From Terriglobia bacterium (lineage in GTDB: Bacteria; Acidobacteriota; UBA6911), in the NCBI GenBank assembly GCA_020072565.1, contig JAIQGI010000018.1:62001-126000 (forward strand): a stretch of 64,000 bases of DNA, read 5' to 3'. The notes beneath the pieces are model-generated. The model saw nothing but the letters and a program-made list of their open reading frames with translations. It ran no database searches and was not told where the DNA came from. Both the position numbers and the translations under genes were made by a program. Positions 32,370-54,351 of the stretch are shown here, piece by piece (the stretch's first letter is position 1; the number at the start of each line of letters is the position of its first letter).

Positions 32370-33578
32370 TTGAATTCTACATCCAGCGCTGTGCCGCCGC
32401 GGAAGGCGCGCTTTGGCTTCCTGCTCCCCCGACTGAATCGCCACGAGATCTCAGGCTCGCTGGGTGATCTGGGGACATTTATCCCCCTCTTGGTCGGGAT
32501 GAGCATTACTAATGGATTGGATTTCACATCGGCGCTGTTTTTTGCAGGTCTATTCAACATCGTCACAGGTTTGACGTTTTCCATCCCGATGGCTGTGCAG
32601 CCGATGAAGGCCATAGCAGCCGTTGCGATTTCTGAACACCTCCCTCTGGGGCAGATTCTTGCTGCAGGGATCTGGACCAGCCTGATTATTCTCATCCTAG
32701 GTATCACCGGGCTCATCACCGTCGTGGATCGCATCATACCGAAACCGGTTGTTCGGGGGCTTCAGTTGGGGCTGGGTCTGCAACTGCTGATAAAGGGTGT
32801 GCAGCTTGTGCGTGATACCAATGTGCTTTGGGGATTGGACAGTGTCAGTATTGGAATCCTGGGCTTCGCATTGGTGCTCGCTTTTGCTTCGTCCAGCAAG
32901 GTCCCTTCCGCACTGATTCTGTTTGTGGCCGGATTGGGCCTGGCCATTGTCATCAACACGGGAGTCGTGTCGTCGCTTCGCCCGGGCTTCCATATTCCTC
33001 ACTGGGTGCCGTTGACCCGGGATGACTTCCTCGGCTCCTTTTTTCGCGCCGCTCTGCCTCAGATTCCGTTGACTACTCTGAACTCAGTGATCGCTGTTTG
33101 CGCACTTTCTGTCGACCTGTTTCCCAATCGGCCCGCGCGACCGAGAAGTGTCGCCGTCAGTGTTGGTCTGATGAATCTCGTATCCGGTTGGTTTGGAGCC
33201 ATGCCCATGTGTCACGGTGCCGGGGGTCTGGCCGGGCAGTATCGGTTTGGAGCCCGCAGCAGCGCCAGCATTTTATTCCTCGGCAGCGTAAAGCTCTTAC
33301 TGGCGGTGTTCTTCGGTGGGTCTTTGCTTACGCTGCTTCACGTCTATCCTGCCTCAATCCTGGGAGTTCTGCTCAGCATCAGTGGGCTGGAGCTGGCCCT
33401 CGTTGCGACAGATCAGAGGGAGCGCGTGCCCGCGACGATCATGTTCGGGACTGCTGCGGGGGTACTGGCCCTCGGCAGTACCGCAACCGGGTTTGCCATG
33501 GGCTGGATCCTCGCGTTGCTGATCGGGTGGAGGAAAAACGATAACGGTATGCCGGAAAGAGGGCCGCAGAAGAAGTAA
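32370..33578 (+). CDS. MOT1-type (SulP-related) molybdate/sulfate transporter
   Basis: A 402-residue inner-membrane protein with about ten hydrophobic segments. ISGSLGDLGTFIPLLVGMS near residue 25 and SIPMAVQPMKAIAAVAISEH near residue 72 are the signatures of the MOT1 molybdate transporter family (PF16983), relatives of SulP sulfate transporters; the second half repeats the pattern (PMCHGAGGLAGQYRFGARS). Family members import molybdate with high affinity, and some may carry sulfate. Next to dsr genes either ion would make sense. The start is TTG, supported by GAGGA nine bases upstream. The gene converges on cydB with only 11 bases between stops. Confidence 0.8.
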   Translation: MNSTSSAVPPRKARFGFLLPRLNRHEISGSLGDLGTFIPLLVGMSITNGLDFTSALFFAGLFNIVTGLTFSIPMAVQPMKAIAAVAISEHLPLGQILAAGIWTSLIILILGITGLITVVDRIIPKPVVRGLQLGLGLQLLIKGVQLVRDTNVLWGLDSVSIGILGFALVLAFASSSKVPSALILFVAGLGLAIVINTGVVSSLRPGFHIPHWVPLTRDDFLGSFFRAALPQIPLTTLNSVIAVCALSVDLFPNRPARPRSVAVSVGLMNLVSGWFGAMPMCHGAGGLAGQYRFGARSSASILFLGSVKLLLAVFFGGSLLTLLHVYPASILGVLLSISGLELALVATDQRERVPATIMFGTAAGVLALGSTATGFAMGWILALLIGWRKNDNGMPERGPQKK

Positions 33579-33589
33579 TATGAGATCCT

Positions 33590-34612
33590 TCAATAGCTGA
33601 ACCGGTCCAGTTTGACCTTACCTCGGAATACCCAGTATATACTTGCCGTATACGAGAGAACCAGAGGCACTCCGATGATCGCGATTACCAGCATGATGCC
33701 GAGAGTTTTCGGAGAAGATGCCGCGTTATAGACCGTCAGGCTGTTCGCGGGGTCGTTGGCGGCCGTTACGATATCGGGGTACATGCCGATGCCGAAAAGC
33801 GTCATCAGCGCTGCCATGGCAGCGCATGAGGAAAGAAATGCATAAAAATCACGGCCATGGTGGATCTCCCGGGGAATGTTGGCGATCGCCAGCGTGTTCA
33901 GGAGCGAAATGCCGAAGAAAACTGGATGGGTCTTGATCGCAACCACCATGTGCGGCACGTAGAGAAGCGTCGCCATGGTCGTGATCGTATAGCAGAGACT
34001 GAAGAAGATGATGGCGTTTTTGACCCAGCCGCGGACCCTCTCATGCAAAGTGCCTTCGGTTTTCAACACCAGATAGATGGCTCCGTGCATCATGAACAGA
34101 GCGACCGTGGTTACTCCCACCAGCAGCGAGTAAGGATTCAACAGTCCCAGGAAAGTTCCGGCATACTCGTGGTCCGGACGCAGCGGCACGCCCCAGGCGA
34201 TGTTACCCAAGGCCACCCCCAAAAGGAGGCTTGAGGCAAGACTGGTCACGCTGAAGCTGATGTCCCAGGTTTTGCGCCACCAGACCATGGGTTGCTTACT
34301 GCGGAACTCGATGGCCACAGCCCGAAAGATAAGCATCACGAGCAGCAGCATGAGCGCCATATAAAAGCCCGAGAAGACCGTGGCGTAGACATGAGGGAAC
34401 GCCGCGAAGAGAGCACCCCCGCCGGTGACCAGCCATACCTCGTTCCCGTCCCAGACCGGCCCGATGGCATTGAGCATGATCCGGCGCTCCTCGTCCTTTT
34501 TGGCCAGGAGGTGGAGGGCTCCGACCCCAAGATCAAACCCGTCCAGCAGTGCATAGCCGGTCAGCAGCACCCCTACCAGAACAAACCACACCGTGTTGAG
34601 GTCCAGGGTCAT
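33590..34612 (-). CDS. cydB: Cytochrome bd ubiquinol/menaquinol oxidase subunit II
   Basis: A 340-residue membrane protein beginning [16 protein letters not shown] at 34612; the ATG overlaps the cydA stop (ATGA). It carries the CydB features YALLDGFDLGVGAL, PVWDGNEVWLVTGGGALFAAFP and about eight membrane helices. It pairs with CydA to reduce oxygen to water with quinol as donor, with high oxygen affinity and no proton pumping. Length is somewhat shorter than E. coli CydB (379), which is common. In the window it gives an oxygen-respiring or oxygen-protecting route beside dissimilatory sulfite reductase genes. Confidence 0.92.
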   Translation of the reverse strand: MTLDLNTVWFVLVGVLLTGYALLDGFDLGVGALHLLAKKDEERRIMLNAIGPVWDGNEVWLVTGGGALFAAFPHVYATVFSGFYMALMLLLVMLIFRAVAIEFRSKQPMVWWRKTWDISFSVTSLASSLLLGVALGNIAWGVPLRPDHEYAGTFLGLLNPYSLLVGVTTVALFMMHGAIYLVLKTEGTLHERVRGWVKNAIIFFSLCYTITTMATLLYVPHMVVAIKTHPVFFGISLLNTLAIANIPREIHHGRDFYAFLSSCAAMAALMTLFGIGMYPDIVTAANDPANSLTVYNAASSPKTLGIMLVIAIIGVPLVLSYTASIYWVFRGKVKLDRFSY

Positions 34613-35964
34613 TGCAGCACCGCCTTTCCGTGCAACCCGTCTTCCTCCTCGATGGGCCCCTGTCTGATCTTGTGATCCAGAAGGTAGATGAACAAAGCGA
34701 ATAGCAGGAGGTATACGAATGAGAACAGGATCAGGGACGCAAGCGTCTCCCCCGCGCCGACTACCCTGGATATGCCATCTCTGGTGCGCAGCAGCCCATA
34801 GACGATCCAAGGTTGACGCCCAACCTCGGCCGACAACCATCCAAGCTGGTTGGCGAATTGCGGGAGGCCGACGGCGAACACATAGATCCATAGCAGCCCA
34901 CGGTTTTGGAACAGGGTCCCGCGGAGCCAGCAAAAACCGCCGAGCAGGCTGAGCACTATAAGTGCCACGCCGATGGTGACCATGGCATGGTAAGTCTGAA
35001 ACACAGCGTTCACCGGCGGCCGGTCCTCAGGTGCGAAGGCCTTGAGGCCGGTCACGGGTTTCTGGAAGTCTCCCGAGATCAGCCAGCTGAGCATGCCGGG
35101 GATGGCAACCGAAAACTCAACCCGCTCGGTGCGTTGGTTAACCCAGCCGAACAGATTCATTGCGCCCGGGGCGCTCGCCGCGTAGTGACCTTCAAATGCC
35201 GCCAGTTTAGCGGGCTGCGTTCGTGCCACGCCCACCGCGCTCGAGTGACCCGTGATCAGCTGAAGCGGCGAGCCCACCAGCGCCATCAGCAAACCGATTC
35301 TCAACGAAGCCCGGGCGAACTCGAGGTGACGCTTCTTGATCAGGTAGAAGGCGCTCACGCTGATGACAAGGAAAGCGCCTGTCTGGAGAGCAGCTGCCAG
35401 GACATGGCTGAGCCGATCCAGAGTGGAGGGATTCAGAATGACATCCTGAAAGGAGACAACCTCCGCCCTTATCCCCGAAGTCGTTTCGACAAGATGGAAT
35501 CCGGCCGGAGTCTGCTGCCAGGAGTTGGCTACAATGATCCAGACCGCACTGAAAATGGAACCCAGCGACACCATCAAGGTGGAGAAAAAGTGCATCCTCG
35601 GGCTCACCCGATCCCAACCGAAGAGCAGGAGTGCGAGAAATCCCGACTCCAGAAAAAACGCGAAGATGCCCTCGGCCGCTAGGGCGCTGCCGAAAACGTC
35701 GCCGACAAACCGTGAGTACGCCGCCCAGTTCGTGCCGAACTGAAACTCCATCACGATCCCCGATGCCACACCGATGGCAAACATGAGACCAAAGATCTTC
35801 ACCCAGTAGCGCGTCATCTCGTGATAAAGCTGCCGCCTGGTCGCCAGGTAGGTGCCCTCCATGACGACGAGGATCAGTCCCAAGCCGATGGAGAAGGGGG
35901 GAAAAATATAGTGGAATCCTATCGTCAGCGCAAACTGCAGCCGCGCCAGCATCAGGACGTCCAT
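34609..35964 (-). CDS. cydA: Cytochrome bd oxidase subunit I (short Q-loop type)
   Basis: A 451-residue membrane protein. The start at 35964 ([20 protein letters not shown]) has GAGGAGGAT upstream and is preferred to a longer upstream reading. Haem ligands are suggested by the His in [17 protein letters not shown] (b595), and by the conserved helices around [13 protein letters not shown] and [11 protein letters not shown] (b558 His/Met region). The Q-loop between them is short, as in the CIO/short-loop class. It forms the quinol-oxidising, oxygen-reducing core with CydB, whose gene overlaps by four bases. No cydX or cydCD is present nearby. Confidence 0.92.
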
Positions 35965-36172
35965 CGGATCCTCCTCTCGGGGCTCTGCGCCGCGCGTGGT
36001 CTGCCAGTGGCGTCTCCTTCCAGGCCCCGCCAAAGTGGGTACTATGACTGACGGGCTTTATACGACACCGGGCGCAAATTCGCAAGCGGCAACGCCTCCC
36101 ACTTTGGATTTTTGAAATAGGATTTTGGATTGAGCCGTGAAGGAGGCCGAAAGTCTGATGCCGGATGGCGGT

Positions 36173-36415
36173 TCAGGCAAGATCGTCCTGGCCCGGCGAG
36201 GAGCCGGACAAGCCGCGCGGATGTCCCCATTCAAAGCGGCACGTGAGGCAGGCCCAGCGAGGATCGTTCCCCGTGGGCGCGCGCCTGTCGAGTAGGGCCC
36301 TGCGGTTCTGCAAATCCTCCTGCAGCTTCTTGTCTGCAGCAGGGAAGTCGTACAAGACTGCGGCGATGTGGCCGGAGCCGCAAGACGGGCACCTTGCTGG
36401 TCTGGCGGAAGTCAT
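36173..36415 (-). CDS. Small zinc-ribbon protein
   Basis: An 80-residue protein starting at 36415 (MTSARPARCPSCGSG), with GGAG eleven bases upstream. Two CxxC pairs, CPSCGSGHI at residues 9-17 and CLTCRFEWGHP near residue 55, form a zinc ribbon; between them lies YDFPAADKKLQEDLQNRRAL. Small proteins of the pattern CPxCGS...(E/D)L...CxxCxHEW occur widely and have no assigned function. The gene is bracketed by AATCCAAAATC-type repeats at 36105-36132 and 36494-36526. Nucleic-acid or metal binding is possible. Confidence 0.6.
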   Translation of the reverse strand: MTSARPARCPSCGSGHIAAVLYDFPAADKKLQEDLQNRRALLDRRAPTGNDPRWACLTCRFEWGHPRGLSGSSPGQDDLA

Positions 36416-36493
36416 TTCTTTTGAGACTCCAGGATTCGAAGAGTCGAAGAAGGTCCCTTTAGGTTCTTTGGATTCCTCGCGTATATGCCGTTT

Positions 36494-36526
36494 GAATCTG
36501 AAATCCAAAATCCGCAATCCAAAATC
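36494..36526. repeat. AATCCAAAATC direct repeat flanking the zinc-ribbon gene
   Basis: GAATCTGAAATCCAAAATCC followed by a second AATCCAAAATC. A related segment in the opposite orientation (GGATTTTTGAAATAGGATTT) lies at 36105-36132 on the other side of the zinc-ribbon gene. Similar AATCCAAAATC words recur in intergenic DNA of many environmental genomes. Confidence 0.55.
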
Positions 36527-37529
36527 AGGAGTGGTGGTGGTTCGCAGCCATTTGGCGGACGCGCTGCACCTGCTGGCGCGCGGCTTTTGCGGATTTCGCA
36601 TGTCCGCAGAGGAGAAAGCAGTCGTGCGCCTCCTGGAAACATGCCACTGCCTTCACGTAACAATCCTGAGGATCCTCTGCCGCCAGCAGCAAGAATGCCT
36701 GGCCGCGATTGTACTGCGTCACCGCGAAATCAACCGGATACTCGGCGCGCGTGCGCACCCGGAGGGCACGGTCCAGGTGCTCAAGCGCGTAGCAGGCACA
36801 GCGGCGCCTGATGCGCTCGTTGGCTATGGCGAGAGAAAGATAGGCGTTCCCGAAATTATTGTGCAGCGCGGCATGCTGCACCGGGAATGCGGAGAGGTTG
36901 TAGACTCGCAAGGCGCGGCGATAGCAGTCGGTAGCCTTCAGCACGTTGGCAGTTTTATCCCCGCTGTCGAGCTGGCGGTACGCTGTGCCAAGGTTCTGGA
37001 GGGTGGCAGCATAGCGCAGGGGATTTTTGTCTCGGGTCCTCACACGCAGCGCCTGCTCGTAGTGCATGACGGCCTGCTGCCACTTGTCGGGGTACTCCTC
37101 CTCCGGTAGTTCGCACCAGGCATTTCCCTGGTTGTATTCTTCCCGGGCCCAGTCGTCGAGCTGGTTCCGGCTGAGATAGAGTTCGGCAGCCGTCCGGTGA
37201 CATTCTAGCGCAGCTTCGAGGCGGGCCTTCTTGGGCAGCTGCCGGGAGTAGACATACGCGTTGCCCAGGGCGTCCAGGATGCCGGCACAGATGAGCGAAT
37301 CCTTGGAAGAAGCGGTGAGAGACAGAGCACGGCGCAAATACTCTACGGCCACGTCCGGATTGGTCAGGGAGTTCTGCATGCAGCCCCCGCTGTGGCAGAT
37401 GCCGAGGCGATAGTGGAGTTCAGAGTTTGACGGTTGCAGGCGGACCGCCTCCTCCAGCAGAACTACCGCTTCTTCGCAGCGATGGTTTATGCAACTCGCC
37501 GCCGCTCTATCCAGCAAGGCACTCAACAT
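36525..37529 (-). CDS. Tetratricopeptide-repeat protein, last gene of the dsrD-N-M2-K2 string
   Basis: A 334-residue, mostly helical soluble protein without signal peptide. Repeats with TPR spacing are visible throughout: EEAVVLLEEAVRLQPSNSEL (residues 19-38), AVEYLRRALSLTASSKDSL, YPDKWQQAVMHYEQALRVRT, KATDCYRRALRVYNLSAF and CYALEHLDRALRVRTRAEYP. It is cysteine-rich for a TPR protein (for example the GGCMQN and RRRCACYAL regions). It lies 61 bp downstream of dsrK2 on the same strand and is probably co-transcribed. Likely a protein-protein scaffold; its target is unknown. Confidence 0.75.
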   Translation of the reverse strand: MLSALLDRAAASCINHRCEEAVVLLEEAVRLQPSNSELHYRLGICHSGGCMQNSLTNPDVAVEYLRRALSLTASSKDSLICAGILDALGNAYVYSRQLPKKARLEAALECHRTAAELYLSRNQLDDWAREEYNQGNAWCELPEEEYPDKWQQAVMHYEQALRVRTRDKNPLRYAATLQNLGTAYRQLDSGDKTANVLKATDCYRRALRVYNLSAFPVQHAALHNNFGNAYLSLAIANERIRRRCACYALEHLDRALRVRTRAEYPVDFAVTQYNRGQAFLLLAAEDPQDCYVKAVACFQEAHDCFLLCGHAKSAKAARQQVQRVRQMAANHHHS

Positions 37530-37590
37530 ATCACCAGAAGTTTACCCTTTCCCGGCTGGTCCTGCGAGTCCAACTACGTGGATTTTGCCA

Positions 37591-39198
37591 TCAATGCCAA
37601 TCCCACTCGATGAAACCAGGATTCACACCGACCATGGCATTAACGATCAGTTCGACCAGGCCGCCATAGAGAATCCTGTTTTTTCCCCAGAGATCATAGT
37701 AAGCCAGCATATCCCGGAACTGCCCCTTGCAGTTGCTGCAGGGAGCGCAGAGATATTTCGGGATTGAAGGATCCATGCAGTCGGCAAAAGCGTTCAGTAT
37801 CTGCGCGAGCTTCTTGCGGCCGGATACGTGCAACCTCCAGTCCACGAAGTTGTTGCCGCTCATGACGGCAAACCCGCTTCCGCCCCCGCAGCAATAATTG
37901 TCGACCCCATGCGGCTCCATCTCCCGGAATCGCGGGCAGATCCTGCGCAGAATCTCGCGCTGCGGTTCGACCACACCCATGAGACGCACCATGTTGCATG
38001 GGTCGTGCAGCGTCACGGGGAAATTGTTGCGGTCGGGATCCAGCTTGATGCGCTCGTTCAGCACGACGTCGCGCAGGAGTGTCATCGAGCTTTCGCGCGG
38101 GATGTTGAGATCACCCGTCAGCAGCCGATCGGCGACGACGGAGAGCGACTTGTGGGCATGCCCGCATTCGCCCAGCACGATTTTCTTGACCCCCAGTTTT
38201 TTTGCTGCCTCTGCGTGCTTGATCGCAACGCGGGCAAATTGCGCGTCGTCATACCAGAGCCCGTAGTTGACGGAGTCATATCCGGCCAGTTCGGAGGAAA
38301 GGGTCCAGGAGATCCCCGCGGCATTCAGTATCACGGCGAAGGCACCGGGATTCTCCGGCCAAGCCATGATCTCGCCGGCGTTGTGGATCAACAGCACTTC
38401 GGCCCCTTCCACATCCCAGGGGGTTTCCACCTTGATGCCGGTCTTCTCCGTCATCTCCTGGTCTATGAACTCGATGTTGTCCTTGACCACAATGGAGTTC
38501 ATGCCCGTGGAAGAGCCCACTTTGAGCTGCACCATCGAGCCGTGGTCGTGGATCTCTTTCGCGGCGATTCCCATTTCCTGGCTGAAGAGTTTCCTCAACT
38601 CGTGCGCGACCAGGCCGTTATCAGCGCCGATCGGGCATGTCTGCGCACATCTGCGGCACAGGTTGCAGCGATATGACAGCTCGATCAGCCTGGCAATCAA
38701 TGGCCAGTTGAGAGCGATATCGCCATGCTGCCAGGCCGAAAGCAGGCCGCCCTTCCTGACAAATTTGAAATAGAGGCGTCGCAAAACTTCCGAGCGATAC
38801 GTGGGCCGATACAGTTCGTTGTTGCCACTCGCCTCGTAGATGTGGCAGGCCTCCGAGCAGGTTTGACAGCGGGTGCAGTTTTCCATCGTCAAGAGCAGCG
38901 GCTGAAGAAAGGTCCAGTTGTTTTCCTTGGTGAAGAGCTTTTCCAGCCCAGACACGAACTTCCTGATCAGTTCATCCTCTTCCTGCTTCGACTTCGGCTG
39001 AGGCACATTCACCACACAGGTATCGTCGAGGATGCATTCGCTCCTCTTGCGGACTTGCTCCGAAAGCGGTGCCCAGGAAGGGTCAAGTGCGTGGTCGCCC
39101 AGGGGATCCGGCAGTGGCATCAAGTCTTCGTTTTCCAGGTGCGCAAGCGGTCGGCCATCTTTGCGCGCCATGTCGTTCAGCCGGATCTTCCCGCTCAT
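37591..39198 (-). CDS. DsrK/HdrD-like iron-sulfur subunit, second copy
   Basis: A 535-residue cytoplasmic protein starting at 39198, its ATG overlapping the stop of the membrane-partner gene. Two [4Fe-4S] binding motifs (NCTRCQTCSEACHIY near residue 125 and CNLCRRCAQTCPIG near residue 190) precede a CCG domain like that of heterodisulfide reductase HdrD/HdrB, with HDPCNMVRLMGV, NYCCGGGSG and CAPCSNCKGQ supplying the non-cubane cluster cysteines. The first motif context (SGNNELYRPTYRSEVLRRLY) corresponds to that of DsrK at 56341-57960, so the two are paralogues. It should pass electrons between quinol and a soluble disulfide or trisulfide. HmeD/DsrK2 naming is possible; the exact partner is unknown. 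Confidence 0.85.
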   Translation of the reverse strand: MSGKIRLNDMARKDGRPLAHLENEDLMPLPDPLGDHALDPSWAPLSEQVRKRSECILDDTCVVNVPQPKSKQEEDELIRKFVSGLEKLFTKENNWTFLQPLLLTMENCTRCQTCSEACHIYEASGNNELYRPTYRSEVLRRLYFKFVRKGGLLSAWQHGDIALNWPLIARLIELSYRCNLCRRCAQTCPIGADNGLVAHELRKLFSQEMGIAAKEIHDHGSMVQLKVGSSTGMNSIVVKDNIEFIDQEMTEKTGIKVETPWDVEGAEVLLIHNAGEIMAWPENPGAFAVILNAAGISWTLSSELAGYDSVNYGLWYDDAQFARVAIKHAEAAKKLGVKKIVLGECGHAHKSLSVVADRLLTGDLNIPRESSMTLLRDVVLNERIKLDPDRNNFPVTLHDPCNMVRLMGVVEPQREILRRICPRFREMEPHGVDNYCCGGGSGFAVMSGNNFVDWRLHVSGRKKLAQILNAFADCMDPSIPKYLCAPCSNCKGQFRDMLAYYDLWGKNRILYGGLVELIVNAMVGVNPGFIEWDWH

Positions 39199-40130
39199 TT
39201 TTTTGCCTCTGACGCCGGCTTGCCGGCAACCACCTGTGCCCAGGTCTTCCGTCCATCGGCGCCCAGGTGTGGAGCCGCCCATGTCGGCCGATAGGTCAGA
39301 GACTCGGCGATCTTTGGTTCCAATTCGCCGCCTCTGCGGTTGGGGAGATCGTCCCAGCGCACTGAGTGGTAAGTAAAGAATTTGGCGATGAAGTGAGACA
39401 TGTGCGTCAGCGGCACGTAGGCGACCAGGAAGGCCGACAGCATAAGTCCCGCGCTAAGTAGCATGGGTATCTCTAGGCTCACATCGAATGTCAGGAGACC
39501 GCTCGAAATTGCCAGCAGGTCGGGTGACGACGATCCCCTCGAGAGATAGCCGGCGGCAAGTACTACGAGCGTGGCCAGAAAGCATACCAGGTTGAAGATG
39601 TCCCCGACCGTCGTGTAAATCCTGAGATTTTCGTCCGTCATGCGGCGCAGCAGCAGTCCAAGGGCACCCAGGGTGGCGAGGGCCGAACCTGCCGTTCCCG
39701 TGAGCCCGATTAGAAGCCGGATGATGCCGTTCACCCCTACTGCGATCGGCGTCGGGGCGAGAACGGACAAAGCCCCACCGAACGCCAGGAAGGTAAGGGT
39801 CGCGATCAGCAGGTAAAGGCCGAAATGGAACGGGAAGCTGCGGTACCACATCCTGCGGTTGTGTTCCCACAGCCCCTTCAGGAAGAAAATCTCGACAATC
39901 ATGAACCTGAGTTCGCCGGCGAGCGAGATCTGCCGTGGCCGGGTCCACCAGTCAAGAGTCTCAAAATACGAGCCGCCGTGCTTCACCCGTTCGGGATCCT
40001 CGTGGGGAACCGGGTAGAGCTCCCAACGCAGGTGGATAGGAGTTCGCGCATAAGAGACAGTGCGGAATATGCAGGCGCCCGCAAACACCAAAGCAGCGGC
40101 GTAAACAACCAGATACAACAGAACCGTCAT
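39195..40130 (-). CDS. DsrM/NarI-like haem b membrane subunit, second copy
   Basis: A 311-residue inner-membrane protein, start at 40130 (MTVLLYLVVYAAALVFAGAC) with GGAAGGG upstream. Five to six hydrophobic segments and histidines spaced as in the nitrate-reductase gamma/DsrM family are visible (FPFHFGLYLL, LTHMSHFIAKFFTYHSVRW). It would bind two haem b groups and oxidise menaquinol for the iron-sulfur partner encoded next (ATGA overlap). It follows the dsrN gene after 171 bp on the same strand. Compared with the DsrM at 55346-56338 it is shorter and clearly distinct, so this is a separate module and not a duplication of the last few thousand years of evolution. Confidence 0.82.
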   Translation of the reverse strand: MTVLLYLVVYAAALVFAGACIFRTVSYARTPIHLRWELYPVPHEDPERVKHGGSYFETLDWWTRPRQISLAGELRFMIVEIFFLKGLWEHNRRMWYRSFPFHFGLYLLIATLTFLAFGGALSVLAPTPIAVGVNGIIRLLIGLTGTAGSALATLGALGLLLRRMTDENLRIYTTVGDIFNLVCFLATLVVLAAGYLSRGSSSPDLLAISSGLLTFDVSLEIPMLLSAGLMLSAFLVAYVPLTHMSHFIAKFFTYHSVRWDDLPNRRGGELEPKIAESLTYRPTWAAPHLGADGRKTWAQVVAGKPASEAKK

Positions 40131-40301
40131 CACTACCCTTCCGGCGACGCTGAGATCAAAGCACAAAGGCTTCCAAAACCGCAAAGGAAATCGATGCAGT
40201 GCGACGCCCCGGCAGCGATCTCAAATAGGTCGCAAGGGTGCCGGTTCCTGAGCATTGTGGAGGTTTTGATGGCGGACTCCAATATGCCCTTGCGCGGCAG
40301 A

Positions 40302-41696
40302 TCAATGCCGACGTCGATACTGCCTGGCGGCCGTTAGCATGCCGGGCGCCCACTCGGGTGTTCCAAGGGCATGAAGGTGCGTGTAGGAGGCCCACACGTT
40401 TCCCTGGAACAATCCGTCACGCCCCTGCCCGCAACCCGTTCCGCGCCTTACCCGGCATGCGGTGGTCACAGCAGCGCTCTCCGTGATGATGCGGGAATAG
40501 TGGAACTCATGCCCCCTGATAACAATACCGTCAGGGAAAAACGGATTGGGCTGATCCACGAGCAGCTCGACATATCCGTGGCCCTGCGGGGCAGAAAAAA
40601 CCTCGACCTCGAATGGAAACACCCCCGCCATGGGGTAGCGCGCCTCGTTCCAGCGGATAGCCTGGGACAGGAGCATCAAGCCCCCACACTCGGCATAGAT
40701 CGGCAAGCCTTCCAGGGCTGCCCGCCGCAGCGCTGCAAGAAAATCCGCATTTGCGGCAAGTGAGGCGCCGTGAGTTTCCGGGAAGCCGCCGCCGATATAC
40801 AGTGCGTCTAGGGGATGAGGCAGCTCAGTGGCCGTCAAAGGAGAACAGGGCACGAGTGCAGCTCCCGACTGTCCGAGGATCTCGAGGTTCTCAGGGTAGT
40901 AGAAGCTGAGGGCTGAATCTATCAGGAATCCCACCCTGATCCCGCGCGCGTCGGGTAGATCGGGGGAAATCGCTCCGGCGCTTTCGAGCGTAGGAGCCTC
41001 TCCGGCCAGGGCGAGAATCCTGTCGAGGTCAAGCCGGCCCTGAGCGAGGTTCATCAGGTTCATTTTCAACTCGTCGGCCCGCGGATGCTCGTCCGGCATC
41101 ACCAGTCCCAGGTGACGCGCCGGGAGTAACGCGTCGCCCGCTGCAGTCGGTAGAACGCCAAGCACGGGTAAGCCGCACTCCGTCGCGATCGCGTCCCGAA
41201 GCACGCTCTCGTGGCGCGCACCGCTCACCCGGTTGAGGATCACGCCCGCAACGTAGGCCTGGGGATCGAGCTTCTGGCAGCCGAGGACCCAGGCCGCGAC
41301 GGTGCGGGTGGTTTTGCCGGCATTGACTATCAGGAGAATGGGGGCCTTCAAGCACTTGGCTAGTTCAGCCGTGCTGTGGGTTCCTCGTGCATCCGAACCG
41401 TCGTACAGACCGCGATTGCCCTCGATGACGTTGAGCCCGGACGCTGAGGCCGATTGCATAAACGAAGAAGTACATCCACGAAATCCCATAAGGTAGCTGT
41501 CGAGATTGCGCGCCGAATGGCCCGAGGCCCAGGCGAGCCAGGCAGCATCGATGTAGTCGGGGCCTTTCTTAAATGCGCGAACCTCGATCCCGCGCTCCCG
41601 GAGCGTCAGGAGGAGACTGAGAGCGAGCAGAGTCTTGCCCGAATCGCCGGACATGCCTGCAATTACGAGCCGCGGGTAAGTATCCGAGGTGCTCAC
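40302..41696 (-). CDS. dsrN: DsrN: cobyrinate/sirohaem amidase (CbiA-type)
   Basis: A 464-residue cytoplasmic protein starting at the GTG at 41696, which overlaps the dsrD stop (GTGA). The N-terminal ATPase half has a P-loop in GMSGDSGKTLLAL and IEGNRGLYDG; the C-terminal half is a class I glutamine amidotransferase-like domain with the nucleophile in AECGGLMLL and LYIGGGFPETH. This is the CobB/CbiA cobyrinate a,c-diamide synthase fold. In dsr loci the homologue DsrN is thought to amidate sirohaem to siroamide for DsrAB. No other cobalamin genes are nearby apart from cobA, which also serves sirohaem, supporting the DsrN assignment. Confidence 0.88.
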   Translation of the reverse strand: MSTSDTYPRLVIAGMSGDSGKTLLALSLLLTLRERGIEVRAFKKGPDYIDAAWLAWASGHSARNLDSYLMGFRGCTSSFMQSASASGLNVIEGNRGLYDGSDARGTHSTAELAKCLKAPILLIVNAGKTTRTVAAWVLGCQKLDPQAYVAGVILNRVSGARHESVLRDAIATECGLPVLGVLPTAAGDALLPARHLGLVMPDEHPRADELKMNLMNLAQGRLDLDRILALAGEAPTLESAGAISPDLPDARGIRVGFLIDSALSFYYPENLEILGQSGAALVPCSPLTATELPHPLDALYIGGGFPETHGASLAANADFLAALRRAALEGLPIYAECGGLMLLSQAIRWNEARYPMAGVFPFEVEVFSAPQGHGYVELLVDQPNPFFPDGIVIRGHEFHYSRIITESAAVTTACRVRRGTGCGQGRDGLFQGNVWASYTHLHALGTPEWAPGMLTAARQYRRRH

Positions 41697-41944
41697 GTCG
41701 GCGTGGAATCTTCTTTGGGTGGAAGTTGGATATAGGAACCGCCCAGATAGCTGTACACGCAGCGGCCCGAGTCGATAAGCAGCCGGATCGCTCGCTTGCA
41801 GTCTTCCTTGGTGCAAGCGTCGGCTCCATGCCTGGCGATCATTTCTTTGGTCAAATCCCCGGCCTTGAGGTTCTTTTTACCGGTGTATTCCGTCACCAGG
41901 CTGAACATATCCTCAGCCAGAGTCTCGATCGAAACCGTCCCCAC
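41693..41944 (-). CDS. dsrD: DsrD: winged-helix activator of dissimilatory sulfite reductase
   Basis: An 83-residue protein starting at GTG 41944, supported by GGAGGT five bases upstream. It has the length and winged-helix pattern of DsrD: a helical N-terminus (LAEDMFSLVTEYTGKK), the recognition region CTKEDCKRAIRLLIDSGRCV and the C-terminal wing YSYLGGSYIQLPPK. DsrD has been shown to stimulate sulfite reduction by DsrAB and is used as a marker of the reductive direction. Here it is not beside dsrAB, as in Desulfovibrio, but heads a separate operon with dsrN on the opposite strand, about 8 kb away. Similarity is recognised by pattern, not search, so a search is desirable. Confidence 0.78.
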   Translation of the reverse strand: MGTVSIETLAEDMFSLVTEYTGKKNLKAGDLTKEMIARHGADACTKEDCKRAIRLLIDSGRCVYSYLGGSYIQLPPKEDSTPT

Positions 41945-42312
41945 ACGGCACCTCCATACCAGCGAAACGTCCCGGGCGCGTCGGGCGCCGGGCGTGGTGT
42001 GATTCTAGCAAAAGAAACCGAGAAAAACACGATGCGGTATGGCCGCAACCACAAATCTCAGCGCGGAGGCCGCAGAGAAGAGACGGCTGCTGATGCACGC
42101 AAATAAACACAGATTGAGCCCATGGCCATGTGAAAGAAGCGCTTGCGCTCCGCCCTGTGCGATACCTCCGTTTTTCTCTGCATTCTCCGCGACCTCAGCG
42201 TTGAGGTTCTTGCCTTGTCAGGCGATTCGCAATCTGCCGGCTGTTTGTCCCTTTCCAGCTCTCCGGCAGTCCACTATAATTCCGCAGTATTTTAGGGGGC
42301 GGGGACGGACAC
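41945..42312. other. Divergent intergenic region with CTCTGCG-type inverted repeats
   Basis: About 370 bases between dsrD and an ABC exporter gene. CTCAGCGCGGAGGCCGCAGA at 42057-42076 and CTCTGCATTCTCCGCGACCT at 42176-42195 are mutually inverted members of the repeat family seen at 4668-4718. Next to dsrD the minus strand reads TAGAAT (42001-42006 in plus coordinates), a possible -10, but no good -35 is present. Confidence 0.5.
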
Positions 42313-43266
42313 ATGGAATCAGCCATCAGGTGCCGGGATCTGCGCAAGCGGTACAAAACGCGGAATGGCAGCGTCGACGCTGTCAACGGTCTGGATCTAG
42401 ATGTCGGCCAGGGCGAATGTTTCGGACTTCTGGGCCCCAACGGAGCCGGCAAGACGACGACCATCGAGATCCTCGAGGGACTGCTCGATGCCAGCTCGGG
42501 CGAAGTCAGCGTGCTGGGCCGACGCTGGGGCGAACATGACGATGAGCTGCGCCAGCGCCTCGGCATTTCGCTTCAGGAAACCCGCTTTCCGGAGAAGCTG
42601 ACGGTATACGAAACGCTGGTTCTGTTCCGGAGCTTCTACCGCGACGGCAACGATCCTGCGGAGGTCATGAAGGAGGTCGGGCTCAGCGAGAAACAGAAGT
42701 CCTGGGTGGGCAAGCTGTCCGGAGGTCAGCGCCAGCGCCTGGCTGTGGCTTGCGCGCTGGTCGGCAATCCGGAGCTGCTGTTCCTCGACGAGCCGACGAC
42801 CGGCCTGGACCCACAGTCCCGGCGACAGCTGTGGGAGATCATTCGCAGGCTCGGAGAACAGGGCCGGACAACGCTTCTCACCACCCACTACATGGACGAA
42901 GCTGAGCGGCTGTGCGGCCGCGTGGCCGTAGTCGATCACGGCGAGATTATCGCGCTGGGTTCACCGGCCGAACTCATTGCCGGCCTGGGCGGCGACCATG
43001 TGGTCGAGTTTGCCCTCGCCAATGGATCGGTCATCGCCGAGGCAGAACTCGCGTCTCTGCCTGCGGTGCGCGAAGTGCGGAAAGAGGCGGCTGGCATGGC
43101 TTTGACCGTGACCGAGCCTCACGTCACCATCCCGGCGTTGCTGCAGATCCTGCAGCACCGTGGTTTCGACCTGATCCGGCTGACCACGCGCCACGTCAGC
43201 CTCGAGGACGTCTTTGTTCACCTGACCGGAAGACGGTTGCGCGATGAAGAAATATCATCCTCTTAG
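42313..43266 (+). CDS. ABC transporter ATP-binding protein (ABC-2 exporter)
   Basis: A 317-residue cytoplasmic ATPase. Walker A is GPNGAGKTTT (residues 41-50), the signature is KLSGGQRQRLAVA (about 134-146), Walker B plus D-loop LLFLDEPTTGLDP, and the H-loop TTHYMDEAE; all are intact. The C-terminal 80 residues form the extra domain typical of CcmA/DrrA-type exporters. The following permease gene starts 23 bases before this stop. Cargo unknown; drug or lipid export is common for this class. Confidence 0.9.
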   Translation: MESAIRCRDLRKRYKTRNGSVDAVNGLDLDVGQGECFGLLGPNGAGKTTTIEILEGLLDASSGEVSVLGRRWGEHDDELRQRLGISLQETRFPEKLTVYETLVLFRSFYRDGNDPAEVMKEVGLSEKQKSWVGKLSGGQRQRLAVACALVGNPELLFLDEPTTGLDPQSRRQLWEIIRRLGEQGRTTLLTTHYMDEAERLCGRVAVVDHGEIIALGSPAELIAGLGGDHVVEFALANGSVIAEAELASLPAVREVRKEAAGMALTVTEPHVTIPALLQILQHRGFDLIRLTTRHVSLEDVFVHLTGRRLRDEEISSS

Positions 43267-44312: not shown

Positions 44313-46796
44313 TTACGCGGTCGCCTGCACCTTTACGCCCAGCAGAGGTTCCAGGAGGACCCGCTCTTCGAGGGGGAGTTCCATCAAGACGCGAAGGTCC
44401 CGGGTCTGGCGATAAGAAACGGCGGAATCGAGGAGGCGCAGGGGAAGTCTGAACTCCGGCCGGCTTCCTGCGAGGCTGCGCCACAGGTCGAGCCAGCGGC
44501 GGGCAGTGAGCTCCTGAAAGACGGGTGAAAACAGGTCGGGGATGCACTCCACCAGGGCATGGGCCAACGCGGCGAGGGCGCCATATTTATAGTAGACAAG
44601 AATCAGAACTTTGATGCGCAACTGCAGTCCCTTTTCGTCGTGAAGCATGCGCTGCAAAATGCGGATCAGGGCAGTCGTGTTTCCCGCATCGGGATTGTCC
44701 GAGCGATAGAAGCGATTGAGCGCTTCCCCGAGGGCGGTACTGCCTTCCTGCCACCTGTCCTCGGCAAAGAGGATTTCGGCATGCTTGAAGAACACGAAGG
44801 CGGATTGTTCGCCGAGTTCGATTGCGCGTTCCGTTGAGATCAGAGCATCACGATAGTGTTCCAGCGCTGCCTGAGCAGTGCCGCGCACGGCCCACGCCAG
44901 AGGCTGGTCCGGCGCAATTTCCAATGCACGTTCGGCATGCTCCAACGCCTGCTCAAAGTGCTTCAGCTCGATCAAAGCTGCGCACCTGTAAACGTAGGGC
45001 ATCTCGTCGAACGGATCAATCTCTGCTGCCTTGGCAAAGGATGCGGATGCCTCCTCATAACAACTGAGGTCCGACAGGGATATGCCCCGGTAGATCCAGG
45101 CGAATGAGTCGTCGGGATCGAGCTGGGTGGCTTTCTCGAAAGACGCCAGCGCCTGGTCGGGATGCCCGGTGTTGAGAAGGATCGCGCCCCGGTCGCTCCA
45201 GGCTCTTGCCTCCTGCGGATTCAGCTCAATAGCCTGGTCGCAGGAGTCCAGGGCTTCCTCGCACCTGCCAAGCTTGGACAGCGCTGAGCCGCGAAGCATC
45301 CAGGCCAACGCATCCTTCGGATTGAATGCGATCATCTTGTCATAGCAGGCCACTGCCTCTTCGTGGCGTCCAAGGCTCCGCAGGCAAAAGCCGAGAACCG
45401 ACAAATCCTCGGGGCGACCTCGAAGAGCGACCAGTTCCTCCGCGGCCCGCAGGGCGCGCGGGAAGTCGCTCTTTTCGACGGCGCTCTTATATTCTGCACA
45501 GCAAATGGGGACGCGGGGATGTTCGCCCTCCTCTTCGCGCACCTCAAGCGCGGGTTGGACATACGCCCGCTCCAGTGCCGCATCGGCAGGAAGAGATGCC
45601 AATCGCTGCCGCAATTCTGCGGGGGAATACCACAACCGGAGAAAGTCGACGAGCAGACGCACAGGTTTGCCCCGGTGCTTCTTGACCTCGATCGACAGCC
45701 TCATGAGCGGCTCGCGCAGCTCATAATACCTGTCCGCTCCCACAGCGAAGGAGTGGAGATGCCCGATCTTGCGCAGAGCCTCGAGATGCGTGGTAGCGTT
45801 TTCCGGTTTCATGAAACAGCGCCGTGCGATTTCCTTGACGGGCATCGGGTGACGCCATTCGCAGATGAAGGCAATGATCTTCCTTTGCTGGGGTGAAAGC
45901 CATGCCATGCGCGCCTGATAGTAGGGCGTCAGATCGTCGATGGTGCGCATGAGCGGTTCAATCAACTCGTCAAGAGAGTCGCGCGTGAGAAACTGCGAGA
46001 AGATGACGTAAGCACGGTGGTTGCCTCCCGCCAGGTACTTTAAGGCGCGCATCCTCCCCAGCCCTCGAGGGGTAGTGATAAAGTCGGAGAGCTTCCGGTC
46101 TCCCCGGTAGTTAGCGATTTTCACGAGCAGACGCATAGCGTCTTCATGCGTAAGCTCCTCCAATTGGTGAAAATGGCGGATGCCGGGGAAAGATGTCCCG
46201 CCCGGTAGCAGAGCATCATCCAAGGGACTCTGACTGGAGGCCAGCATCAGAAAGTGAGGATTCACCCGCATGAAGCGATCGAAATGCCGGCGCCCGTCAG
46301 GTCCTATCCCTTGCAAGAGTTCATCCAGGTTTTCCATCAGGATGAGCAGAGTCCGCCCCTGCAACAGTTCTTGGAGGATTTCGGTGGCGGCGATCTCCGC
46401 CTTTTCCGCCGGAAGATTGTACAGTGCATTAATGCGCTGAGCCGACACTTCATCATTCTCAATTTCAGCAATCAAAGCGTGAAGGATGCGCAACAGCAGA
46501 TCCAGGAAGGTGGTGATCTCCCATTCCTCCTCGCGCAACCAGGCGAGGTACATCCGCTCGCGCACATCCGCCATGGCACGCAATCGGTAGTAGATCAAGG
46601 AAATCAGATGGGTCTTTCCGATCCCCCTCGGGCCGATAAGGAAGGTGTGCTGCTGGCTGCGGTCGAATGCGCAAGTGCGGATCCGCTCCATGATTTCCTG
46701 TGCGAGATCATGCCTCTGGACAAAAATACCCTCCAATGCTTCCTGCGGCATCAAACTCGGGGTGAAACGGGAGAGAAAAGCGGGCTGCTGGGTCAT
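44313..46796 (-). CDS. AAA/STAND-type ATPase with winged-helix and TPR domains
   Basis: An 827-residue cytoplasmic protein; ATG 46796 is used because four residues further upstream the only start is TTG. Residues 45-330 are a P-loop ATPase: GPRGIGKTHLISL (55-67), a Walker B-like ILMENLDELLQG, and a sensor-like ASSQSPLDDA. A winged-helix follows (MPVKEIARRCFMKPENATTH), then about eight TPR motifs (roughly 470-730, for example AVACYDKMIAFNPKDALAWM). This arrangement resembles regulatory STAND/archaeal-ATPase proteins that couple nucleotide binding to a TPR sensor. A small coiled-coil gene and a TonB-like gene lie upstream on the same strand. Function unknown; signal transduction or a scaffold ATPase is inferred. 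Confidence 0.75.
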   Translation of the reverse strand: MTQQPAFLSRFTPSLMPQEALEGIFVQRHDLAQEIMERIRTCAFDRSQQHTFLIGPRGIGKTHLISLIYYRLRAMADVRERMYLAWLREEEWEITTFLDLLLRILHALIAEIENDEVSAQRINALYNLPAEKAEIAATEILQELLQGRTLLILMENLDELLQGIGPDGRRHFDRFMRVNPHFLMLASSQSPLDDALLPGGTSFPGIRHFHQLEELTHEDAMRLLVKIANYRGDRKLSDFITTPRGLGRMRALKYLAGGNHRAYVIFSQFLTRDSLDELIEPLMRTIDDLTPYYQARMAWLSPQQRKIIAFICEWRHPMPVKEIARRCFMKPENATTHLEALRKIGHLHSFAVGADRYYELREPLMRLSIEVKKHRGKPVRLLVDFLRLWYSPAELRQRLASLPADAALERAYVQPALEVREEEGEHPRVPICCAEYKSAVEKSDFPRALRAAEELVALRGRPEDLSVLGFCLRSLGRHEEAVACYDKMIAFNPKDALAWMLRGSALSKLGRCEEALDSCDQAIELNPQEARAWSDRGAILLNTGHPDQALASFEKATQLDPDDSFAWIYRGISLSDLSCYEEASASFAKAAEIDPFDEMPYVYRCAALIELKHFEQALEHAERALEIAPDQPLAWAVRGTAQAALEHYRDALISTERAIELGEQSAFVFFKHAEILFAEDRWQEGSTALGEALNRFYRSDNPDAGNTTALIRILQRMLHDEKGLQLRIKVLILVYYKYGALAALAHALVECIPDLFSPVFQELTARRWLDLWRSLAGSRPEFRLPLRLLDSAVSYRQTRDLRVLMELPLEERVLLEPLLGVKVQATA

Positions 46797-46864
46797 ATAC
46801 CGGCACAATTCAAAGAGGGCTTCGTCTCGGCGCCCCGCGAATTCCTAAAGCGGAGATGCGGGGA

Positions 46865-47209: not shown

Positions 47210-48883
47210 CTAGCGCTTGAAATCCACCGTTATGGTTGTCTCGCTCTTAATACTCACACCCCGAAGCGTCGCGGGCTTGAATTGCCATTTCATAACGGCC
47301 GCTTCGGCAGCAGGACGGAGGAGTGACGGGCCGCGCACTGCAGTTGCCTTGGTCACTCTCCCCTGCTCATCAACTTCCACCGTAAGCTCCACCCTGCCCA
47401 TGATCCTCATCTTGACGGCCACCGGAGGATATTCCGGAACTACCCTGGAAAGCGGCAGCGGGGCCGTTGCCGCGGGCGCAGGGCTTACCGTCGGGGCTTC
47501 AGCAGCGGACTTCACTTCGGTGCTGGGCGGAGGGCCGGACGGAGCGACGGGCACGTTAGCGGGAAGCCGCTCGGGAATCGGCACCTGAGACACCCGTGCC
47601 GGCGGCATCTCAACGGTGGTCTTGGGTAGGGTCCCCTGAGTGGCGAACGACTGAGGCGGCGCAATCGTCGCCGGGCGCGTTTCATCAACAGTAGCCGGCG
47701 GAGGTGTCGGCACAGGGGGGAAAGTTCCGTGGGAATTGCCTGCCCCGGCTGCCGGTTGTCCTGACGCATCTCCTTTAGCACTTGCCGATTTCGTTCGAGC
47801 CGCTGCCGATTGAGCAGCGGAGGGATCCGGACGAGCAGCGTTGCGCGCCGCCTGGGACGACGCGGGAGATGCCTCACGAGTCGCCGCGCCCGCGGCGTTC
47901 AGGCGCATCGAATCACTTGCGGTCTTTCCCGGGTCGGCGGCAGTCCTCTGGGGCCCGACGGTTTGCGAGGACCCTCCCAGCGGCGTTCCGGGCGATACCG
48001 ACGATCCGACATCCGTTTGGGATGACGGAGCTTTGGCCTGACTCGAGGAGTCGCTCTTCGTGAAAAAATAGCGATAGGAAAAAACGCAAGCCGCGATCAG
48101 GGTCACGGCCGCGAAGCCGACAACTGCCCGCCGCGGAGCCCTGTGAAGGCGCCCCACTTCCGAAATGATTGCAGTGGACCTGCCAGGTCTTGCCACGACA
48201 TCCGGCTTGTCACCAATGTATGCCTTGGGTGGAAGTTTAACCTTCTCTCCAGGCGGAGCTTCGGCCGGCACTGCCGGCGGCAGATGCGGCAGCGCCGCTG
48301 CTCGCATCGGAGATTCTTCGGGTACTTTGGCAGTGACCGCTTTTGCAGCGAGCGTGGCAGGGGGAGCGGATCGAACCTCCTTGCGATCCGCAGCCTCGGC
48401 CGGAATGGCTGTGGCGACAGATGCCGCACCCGATGCCGGCGCTTCCGGTGGAGGCGCGGGTTCGGGCGCACCTGCAGGCTGGAACCTCGTGGCCTCACGT
48501 ATCGTAAGCGGGATGACATTGGATTTCGGTCGCGATTGGAGTTCGTCGAGTGTCCGCGCGAGTTCCGCATCCACATCGGCATAAAAAACTCCACCATCGT
48601 CCGACTCTGGTTCCTGCGTGTTTCGGGAACCCGGCAGCTTTGGGATGCCGCCGGCGCTTTCCAGTGAGCCGTGCTGAGATGCGGGTTCGACTGCAGCTGC
48701 ATCCGATCGTTCGGGCGGTACTTCCAAGACGGCAGAGACGGCGTCCAGCTCTTCCAGGAATTGAAAAACAAGCGCGTCCACATCCGGTGCTTTGGCACGC
48801 GTCCCCCTGCTTTTGGGATCAGTTGCCTGTGTGTTCAGGTGTTCTCCGTCCATTTCCATTCTGCGCACCTTCTCCTTGTTCAT
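47210..48883 (-). CDS. TonB-like energy-transduction protein with long cytoplasmic N-terminus
   Basis: A 557-residue protein, start at 48883 (MNKEKVRRMEMDGEHLNTQ) with GGAGG upstream. Its single membrane helix is near residues 245-262 (VVGFAAVTLIAACVF), unusually far in, with about 240 acidic/proline-rich residues before it. A Pro/Ala/Ser-rich periplasmic spacer follows, then the TonB C-terminal domain (about 475-555: VVPEYPPVAVKMRIMGRVEL, KWQFKPATLRGVSI). The C-terminal domain would contact TonB-box receptors. The long cytoplasmic segment is atypical for TonB and may couple it to the ATPase/coiled-coil proteins encoded downstream. Similar fusions occur in acidobacteria and deltaproteobacteria as regulators of unknown role. 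Confidence 0.8.
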   Translation of the reverse strand: MNKEKVRRMEMDGEHLNTQATDPKSRGTRAKAPDVDALVFQFLEELDAVSAVLEVPPERSDAAAVEPASQHGSLESAGGIPKLPGSRNTQEPESDDGGVFYADVDAELARTLDELQSRPKSNVIPLTIREATRFQPAGAPEPAPPPEAPASGAASVATAIPAEAADRKEVRSAPPATLAAKAVTAKVPEESPMRAAALPHLPPAVPAEAPPGEKVKLPPKAYIGDKPDVVARPGRSTAIISEVGRLHRAPRRAVVGFAAVTLIAACVFSYRYFFTKSDSSSQAKAPSSQTDVGSSVSPGTPLGGSSQTVGPQRTAADPGKTASDSMRLNAAGAATREASPASSQAARNAARPDPSAAQSAAARTKSASAKGDASGQPAAGAGNSHGTFPPVPTPPPATVDETRPATIAPPQSFATQGTLPKTTVEMPPARVSQVPIPERLPANVPVAPSGPPPSTEVKSAAEAPTVSPAPAATAPLPLSRVVPEYPPVAVKMRIMGRVELTVEVDEQGRVTKATAVRGPSLLRPAAEAAVMKWQFKPATLRGVSIKSETTITVDFKR

Positions 48884-49182
48884 ATTACTGCCTCCGCCCG
48901 GTATAGAGTCGTAAGGCTGCGTTCGGGATGAGGGGACTAATTGGCTGATTTTAGCATTGACGCAAGGACGCACACCACAAAAATCGCTCTTGTTACCCTG
49001 CCAGAATCTGCACAAACTATTAAATATGTGTGAGTTACAGCAAGAACAGACCGCCATTTTCCACACGGGCGCGAAATATCAGACAGACTTATGTTGAAGT
49101 CATTTCGCGCGCGTGATAGACAAGGGGGTCCGGCAGCATCCCTACGGCCCGGCGGGCGGGGAAGCTGTCAGGGAGACTGTCC

Positions 49183-49944
49183 ATGAAGCCCGGCAAAGTG
49201 TACCTCGTGGGGGCGGGTCCCGGAAGTCCGGAGCTGTTGACCCTTAAAGCGGCTGACCTGTTGAAGAGAGCCGATGTTGTTGTCTATGACCGGCTTATCC
49301 AGCAGGAAGTGCTCGGTCTTTCCAGGCCTTCCGCCGAGTGCATTTACATGGGCCAGCCGGTTGGCAGGCATGAATCGCGGCAGGAAGAAATCCACGCCCT
49401 GCTCGTGCAAAAGGCTCGGGAAGGAAAGCTGGTGGTTCGGCTCAAGGGCGGAGACCCATTCCTGTTCGGACGCGGCGGCGAAGAGGTGGAGTTTCTTGCC
49501 GAGCACGGCGTACCGTTTGAGGTGATACCGGGCGTTTCCGCCGCCCTGGCCGCGCCTCTTGCAGCCTGCATCTCCGTGACGCACCGGAACGCGGCCTCAT
49601 CCGTAGCGATCGTAACCGGCCACGAGGCCAGTGTGGAAACCAGCCGGATACACTGGGACGCACTCAGCAAGCTGGACACCCTCGTATTTCTCATGGGGGT
49701 GCACAACGTGCGCAATATCAGCCGGAGCTTGATCGCGCATGGCCGAAGCCCCGAAACGCCTGCAGCCATGATCCAGATGGCATTCTGGCCGGACCAGTTC
49801 GTAGTCACCGGGACACTGGCCAATATCGCCGACGAAGTCGAGCATGCCGCCATAAAGCCGCCCGCCACTCTGGTTGTGGGTGAAGTGGTGAGGCTTCGGG
49901 AGAAACTCTGCCTCGCCGCACGATCGTCGGCCGCCACGAAATGA
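49183..49944 (+). CDS. cobA: Uroporphyrinogen-III C-methyltransferase
   Basis: A 253-residue cytoplasmic SAM-dependent enzyme that methylates uroporphyrinogen III to precorrin-2, the branch point to sirohaem and cobalamin. Motifs are GAGPGSPELLTLKA (residues 9-22), YDRLI, the SAM loop GGDPFLFGRGGEE (about 87-99) and VTGHEA. Only the methyltransferase part is present; no CysG dehydrogenase/chelatase domain is fused. It lies 189 bp upstream of dsrA on the same strand and supplies the cofactor of DsrAB, with DsrN. No riboswitch was recognised upstream. Confidence 0.92.
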   Translation: MKPGKVYLVGAGPGSPELLTLKAADLLKRADVVVYDRLIQQEVLGLSRPSAECIYMGQPVGRHESRQEEIHALLVQKAREGKLVVRLKGGDPFLFGRGGEEVEFLAEHGVPFEVIPGVSAALAAPLAACISVTHRNAASSVAIVTGHEASVETSRIHWDALSKLDTLVFLMGVHNVRNISRSLIAHGRSPETPAAMIQMAFWPDQFVVTGTLANIADEVEHAAIKPPATLVVGEVVRLREKLCLAARSSAATK

Positions 49945-51326: not shown

Positions 51327-51386
51327 GCTGCATCCGGCATGGCAACGACATCCAGGCCGCCCCAGCGATTATCAGGAGTCATCAAG

Positions 51387-54306: not shown

Positions 54307-54351
54307 ACCAATCCTGCTGCCCGGCTCCGGAAGATGAATAGGAGACGGAGA

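Follow-up and report, generated by a model that had tools for sequence, protein, structure and literature searches.

A Second, Divergent DsrMK-like Module Near a Complete dsr Cluster of an Acidobacterial Genome

What does a second DsrMK-like pair do in a soil bacterium that encodes a complete DsrMKJOP, itself a terminal reductase? The question is raised by a stretch of 64,000 nucleotides (hereafter the window) from a Terriglobia bacterium (Acidobacteriota; GenBank assembly GCA_020072565.1, contig JAIQGI010000018.1, positions 62,001 to 126,000 of the forward strand), in which two genes, dsrM2 and dsrK2, lie in a minus-strand string with dsrN and a gene for a DsrD-like protein, about 7–8 kb from a complete dsrAB-L-C-MKJOP cluster on the plus strand. 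Judged from sequence comparisons, DsrK2 is an old, separate clade spread across phyla and not canonical DsrK, and two of the four heme ligands of DsrM are lost in DsrM2. Our preferred reading, to which we give roughly even credence, is that DsrM2K2 would work alongside DsrMKJOP as a menaquinone:DsrC oxidoreductase, electroneutral and with a single heme, and would represent an old sister family of DsrMK instead of a spare copy. The string comprises the following genes and codons (window coordinates):

41693–41944, minus strand: DsrD-like winged-helix protein, 83 residues, GTG start (from its translation, predicted winged helix and the positions of relatives)
40302–41696, minus strand: dsrN, CobB/CbiA-type amidotransferase, GTG start at 41696 (CobB family match)
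39195–40130, minus strand: dsrM2, NarI-type membrane protein, 311 residues, ATG at 40130 (family match, AlphaFold2 model and Foldseek)
39825–39827, minus strand: codon of DsrM2 His102, retained heme ligand in transmembrane helix 2 (aligns with DsrM His133)
39393–39395, minus strand: codon of DsrM2 His246, retained heme ligand at the cytoplasmic end of transmembrane helix 5 (aligns with DsrM His275)
37591–39198, minus strand: dsrK2, two 4Fe-4S sites and a complete CCG site, ATG at 39198 (family profile and motifs)
36525–37529, minus strand: TPR protein, 61 bases downstream of dsrK2, a neighbor only (TPR_12 match)

The sequence-only reading had described these five reading frames as a second, divergent DsrMK-like module encoded with dsrD and dsrN. 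All five are present, as are both overlaps, GTGA at the start of dsrN and the stop of the DsrD-like gene, and ATGA at the start of dsrK2 and the stop of dsrM2; the module with dsrN and the DsrD-like gene is borne out, and the arrangement recurs in relatives. The dsrN product, a CobB/CbiA amidotransferase sited in a dsr cluster, matches the CobB family at 406 bits (cut-off 254), and its gene is the only one of this kind in the genome. The TPR gene, put forward as the fifth member of the set, was rejected as such, since a relative of it occurs in none of the 80 DsrK2 loci introduced below. A promoter and terminator scan of positions 36000–42600 was uninformative, with one promoter-like site (1.8 expected by chance) and eight terminator-like sites (5.8 by chance).

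As a gene find the module is already known. The available excerpts of Hausmann et al. 2018 (PMC6018796) describe paralogs of dsrMK, named dsrM2 and dsrK2, in the peatland Acidobacteria SbA1-7, state that sulfate reducers fairly commonly have such paralogs upstream of dsrAB, and report dsrD and dsrN in pairs in the peatland acidobacteria; as far as the excerpts of a second paper go, the pair is also named in Desulfosporosinus SbF1. The window shares with the SbA genomes both the pair beside dsr genes and the pairing of dsrD and dsrN. One of our loci (L116; loci and genomes are cited by L and G labels) is a contig of SbA5 with the order dsrM2-dsrK2-dsrA, and its DsrK2 is 75% identical to that of the window; this kinship and the adjacency of dsrM2 place the window pair among the DsrM2K2 named for the SbA acidobacteria. 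Within those excerpts Hausmann et al. (PMC6018796) name the pair only, with no discussion of heme loss, of a separate clade or of loci without DsrAB. In the open-access literature searched there is no earlier account of the DsrK2 clade, of the DsrM2 heme-ligand loss, or of DsrC-bearing genomes with the module in which no sulfite reductase was seen.

The DsrK2 Clade and Its Iron–Sulfur Sites

Against the curated NCBIfam equivalogs, the window DsrK2 reaches 324.7 bits with DsrK (NF045796, cut-off 400) and the window DsrM2 18.2 bits with DsrM (NF038037, cut-off 300); the canonical DsrM, DsrK and DsrP of the window all exceed their curated cut-offs. DsrK2 likewise stays under the cut-offs for TmcB (195 bits, cut-off 735) and HmcF (162 bits, cut-off 750), proteins of the Tmc and Hmc complexes that belong to the same CCG/ferredoxin superfamily but lie on separate branches of the tree. 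Filed strictly by curated scores, DsrM2 and DsrK2 are thus not DsrM and DsrK. In the wide sense they do form a DsrMK-type module, a NarI-type subunit (family match at E = 6e-7) adjacent to a CCG protein with two 4Fe-4S sites, which is the plan of DsrMK in the DsrMKJOP of the same genome; unlike DsrMKJOP, DsrM2K2 has no JOP genes beside it in the window.

The tree comprises the 64 of 234 rows left after removal of near-copies. In it, 34 DsrK2 rows lie on one side of a branch with support of 100/100 and a stem of 1.68 changes per column, and canonical DsrK (six rows, standing for 84; 100/100), a DsrC-linked third type and TmcB/HmcF-like rows all lie apart from DsrK2. The sequence-only reading would have been refuted by a place of dsrK2 outside DsrK/HmeD; in this tree of DsrK2, canonical DsrK, third-type and TmcB/HmcF-like rows, DsrK2 is a fully supported clade of its own and does not lie inside canonical DsrK, which answers that condition only in part. 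The scan of named genomes gave at least 508 DsrK2 relatives, and the best 80 of these, the loci behind the counts out of 80, span Acidobacteriota, Planctomycetota, Zixibacteria, Myxococcota, other Deltaproteobacteria, Gemmatimonadota, Poribacteria, Sumerlaeota and others. Among the acidobacterial rows (22), mean identity in the alignment is 76%.

The metal sites of the clade are intact: two CxxCxxCxxxC ferredoxin (Fer4) motifs occur in 97 of 97 DsrK2 rows, and a CCG site with CxxCxxC in 94 of 97. Canonical DsrK differs at this CCG site, with CxC in 46 of 68 rows (20 were not caught by the pattern). Among solved structures, a sequence search with DsrK2 gave one match, an iron–sulfur reductase at E = 6e-5, and a profile search none at 1e-6. 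The DsrK profile starts at residue 101 of the 563-residue frame; an N-terminal extension specific to DsrK2 was nevertheless rejected, as the leader of canonical DsrK is similar. DsrMK-like proteins scoring 200–290 bits were also rejected as close relatives of DsrK2, since they branch elsewhere in the tree.

Four loci (L208:8071-10556, L210:1626-3718, L211:13699-16223 and L209:6886-9473) have a third DsrM-DsrK-like type, whose DsrM is short and has four histidines; in L208, L209 and L211 the neighboring DsrC reads GAY where the GAC cysteine is usual, and its cysteine is found at LFPCG. In the acidobacterial loci L069-L072, dsrC precedes a gene for a TmcB/HmcF/DsrK-like CCG protein. Several TmcB/HmcF-like matches contain an internal stop (TGA, TAG or TAA) and are probably alignments that run past the ends of their frames.

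Fold and Heme Ligands of DsrM2

The AlphaFold2 model of DsrM2 (predicted local distance difference test 85.5) is a NarI-type bundle, and the top eight Foldseek matches to it are all NarI, the best at E = 0.02 and all with E over 0.001. NarI of nitrate reductase, with which DsrM2 shares a predicted fold of five helices, has four heme histidines, whereas DsrM2 keeps only one pair. Canonical DsrM has His133, His143, His257 and His275 in 59 of 59 sequences, and profile alignment sets DsrM2 His102 on His133 and His246 on His275. Not one of 86 DsrM2 rows, a count that leaves out eight further rows without the start motif, has all four heme histidines or histidines at both of the other heme places, which sets the family apart from four-histidine DsrM. 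Divergence alone does not explain the loss, because the third-type DsrM, which is more divergent (65–79 bits to the window DsrM), keeps all four histidines in six of six rows (four distinct).

Hydropathy indicates five helices in DsrM2. Positive charge marks the side of the long first loop and of the C-terminal tail, which would place the retained histidine pair where helices 2 and 5 meet the cytoplasm. Since the pair for the outer-side heme is gone, we infer that DsrM2 carries a single heme b, at the inner face.

Gene Neighborhoods and Co-occurrence

dsrM2 stands directly before dsrK2 in 78 of the 80 loci (76 counted by script, L090 and L141 by eye), and the remaining two are cut by a contig end. 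The order dsrD-dsrN-dsrM2-dsrK2 was found in six loci, in four of which (L104, L113, L119 and L125) dsrN ends next to dsrM2; dsrA follows dsrK2 in 10 of the 80. Directly before dsrM2, dsrC occurs in L117, L124, L134 and L139, and in each of them DsrC has both C-terminal redox cysteines; in L139 the whole dsrM2K2 pair lies inside a dsr operon, between dsrC and an RsbRD-like gene. Further neighbor families around DsrK2 were set aside, being mostly wrong-strand frames of GC-rich DNA.

Across 396 genomes of the phylum, canonical DsrK was found in 29, DsrK2 in 29 and both in 25, where DsrK2 means a score of 303–344 bits, a band drawn by eye, and at most four candidates were scored per genome, so that paralogs may be missed. 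The co-occurrence has a Fisher p of 2e-31, a test that ignores kinship, and the 25 genomes fall in eight family codes. A dsrA match is present in 68 of the 80 named DsrK2 genomes, and DsrC in 11 of 13 genomes searched, that of the window included. A single-contig Gemmatimonadota genome (G449, L127) was considered as a case of dsrAB and DsrK2 without DsrK or DsrC and rejected; the missing genes may lie in gaps, because masked or unknown runs occur next to dsrP in its dsr stretch (L204).

Five DsrK2 genomes present a different picture: those of L117, L124, L134, L150 and L153 gave no dsrA, canonical DsrK or NIR_SIR protein (0 of 5, in metagenome-assembled genomes that are incomplete), and the same NIR_SIR search gave two matches in the window genome as positive control. 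DsrC is present in four of the five. In L117, L124 and L134, dsrC, dsrM2 and dsrK2 are successive genes within 40 bases of each other, with starts that we chose ourselves, and in L153 dsrC comes 2 kb after a dsrK2 located at the end of its contig. The L153 genome, apparently assembly G021, is 98% complete with 1% contamination, the only completeness figure among the five. A cysteine desulfurase-family gene precedes dsrC and a second class-V aminotransferase gene follows dsrK2 in L124 and L134, and the L124 neighborhood additionally contains a rhodanese. Seven further genomes of the 80 lack a dsrA match; the NIR_SIR search covered the five above and the window genome. In another genome (G443, an Abyssobacteria assembly that contains L121), eight DsrC-family matches were seen in L195, L197 and L199-L203, some in tandem and several without the C-terminal cysteine pair.

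The 83-residue protein of the window is likely a DsrD, a name taken from its position and modeled fold. Its predicted winged-helix model is confident, and 15 distinct relatives were found, whose genes lie directly after dsrB in six loci (L060, L062, L063, L102, L139 and L204) and elsewhere beside dsrN or dsrM2; the window protein thus has both the winged helix and the place beside dsrB or dsrN expected of DsrD. The sequence-only reading had called the gene dsrD outright: the gene, its predicted fold and its position stand, but sequence comparison did not show the identity. The protein has no match to Pfam DsrD (PF08679, cut-off 24.2 bits), which among 18 genomes only the L140 genome passes; compared with the one canonical DsrD in the loci it gives 1.4% in hhalign and no BLAST match. 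That canonical DsrD itself matches 1ucr, and 1ucr was not among the 50 structures listed for the DsrD-like model. A weak match to ribosomal L37ae was taken as chance.

The distance of dsrD and dsrN from dsrAB, read at first as a separation of cofactor and activator functions, reduces to a local rearrangement, because relatives have the same genes directly after dsrP, or the DsrD-like gene directly after dsrB. In the window the main cluster begins with a siroheme-branch methyltransferase and continues with dsrA, dsrB, dsrL-like, dsrC, an RsbRD_N protein, dsrM, dsrK, dsrJ-like, dsrO-like and dsrP:

49183–49944, plus strand: uroporphyrinogen-III C-methyltransferase (siroheme branch)
50133–51326, plus strand: dsrA (580.6 bits, over cut-off)
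51339–52469, plus strand: dsrB (518.5 bits, over cut-off)
52573–54234, plus strand: NAD(P)-binding flavoprotein (family match NAD(P)-binding protein PRK12771), which we take to be dsrL
54292–54669, plus strand: dsrC, with both C-terminal cysteines (GAC...GCV)
55346–56338, plus strand: canonical dsrM, four heme histidines (514.6 bits)
56341–57960, plus strand: canonical dsrK (718 bits)
ending at 58396, plus strand: dsrJ-like multiheme stretch (named by eye only)
58383–59156, plus strand: dsrO-like ferredoxin (named by eye only)
59166–60329, plus strand: dsrP (over curated cut-off)

The host genome (7.46 Mb, 98% complete, 3.8% contaminated, with the window on contig 18) gave no match to aprA and none over the cut-off to qmoC; sulfite, rather than sulfate, is for this reason the likely acceptor. 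Around the string, minus-strand genes for a large TPR/AAA protein (44313–46808) and a TonB C-terminal protein (47210–49066) lie between it and the main cluster, and downstream of the TPR gene are the genes for both subunits of a cytochrome bd oxidase (33590–36033, minus strand), adjoined by a MOT1-type molybdate transporter (32370–33578).

A Proposed Role for DsrM2K2 and Its Alternatives

In the oxidoreductase that we propose, a membrane-bound complex of two subunits, DsrK2 would be cytoplasmic and carry, besides two 4Fe-4S clusters, a complete heterodisulfide-reductase-type CCG cluster acting on oxidized DsrC (trisulfide, disulfide or persulfide), and the one heme b of DsrM2 would lie toward the cytoplasm. 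Menaquinol would be oxidized near the inner face and its protons released where DsrC reduction takes them up; with release and uptake in the same compartment, electron transfer would proceed without a membrane potential. DsrM2K2 would work alongside the DsrMKJOP of its own cell, and service to one and the same sulfite reductase may explain why dsrN and the DsrD-like gene belong to its string. That the module might have a role beside DsrMKJOP was an idea of the sequence-only reading, and we keep it as the best one.

Several observations weigh against this proposal. At the score thresholds used, 46 of the 80 DsrK2 loci have no other dsr gene in the sequence available, many being on short contigs, and direct linkage to dsrC is seen in only four. 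In seven of the 86 DsrM2, from six Zixibacteria and one Deltaproteobacterium (L137, L128, L142, L144, L145, L147 and L120), a histidine persists close to where helix 5 begins and may be left over from the lost heme site; one row carries a histidine in the helix 2 stretch yet lacks His102. The loop between helices 3 and 4, with a charge of -0.9, breaks the positive-inside rule. Finally, DsrM2 has three more histidines close to the inner face, His33, His43 and His255, invariant or nearly so, that could bind a second heme in an unusual way.

A broader idea is one that we offer only tentatively and regard as doubtful: DsrC and a one-heme DsrM2K2 would form a free-standing sulfur redox module that predates, or stands apart from, sulfite reductase. 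Cysteine desulfurase and rhodanese would load DsrC with persulfide, which menaquinol would reduce without charge separation, and in organisms with dsrAB the module would clear or recycle DsrC persulfide beside the energy-conserving DsrMKJOP.

The genomes without a visible sulfite reductase count against the suggestion, made in the sequence-only reading, that DsrM2K2 does the job of DsrMKJOP, carrying electrons from menaquinol to DsrC trisulfide, and stands in for it or supplements it under some conditions; there the module and DsrC occur together where no sulfite reductase was seen. The shared subunit plan, the strong co-occurrence with dsrA and canonical DsrK, and the L139 module within a dsr operon would all fit such a duplicate, but an ancient separate clade with so long a stem (1.68), scores under both the DsrK and DsrM cut-offs and the loss of two heme ligands speak for a different one, and we consider a shared job unlikely. 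It is also rather unlikely, in our estimate, that DsrM2K2 acts on a disulfide or thiol other than DsrC, in the manner of methanogen HdrDE. The heterodisulfide-reductase type of the CCG site and the 46 loci with neither dsrC nor another dsr gene point that way, against which stand dsrC as direct operon partner in four loci and DsrC in most of the genomes searched for it. Least probable is a reverse flow, in which DsrC thiols or persulfide would be oxidized and electrons passed to menaquinone for the oxidation or disposal of sulfide or sulfane sulfur: the cysteine desulfurase-family proteins near the module in L124 and L134 and the rhodanese in L124 are compatible with it, and passage through a single inner-side heme would cost no membrane potential, but the window module sits with a DsrD-like protein, and DsrD is, in the parts of the literature available, a marker of the reductive direction.

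The DsrM2K2 oxidoreductase that we prefer touches on the question of how sulfite reducers divide electrons between energy-saving and non-saving complexes. If it is correct, a one-heme DsrMK family would be a naturally occurring NarI fold with one heme, and DsrM2 would test whether DsrMK owes its energy conservation to the outer-side heme. Genome counts of DsrMK may mix two families, and the presence of DsrM2K2 with DsrC where no sulfite reductase was seen suggests a function of DsrC apart from sulfite respiration.

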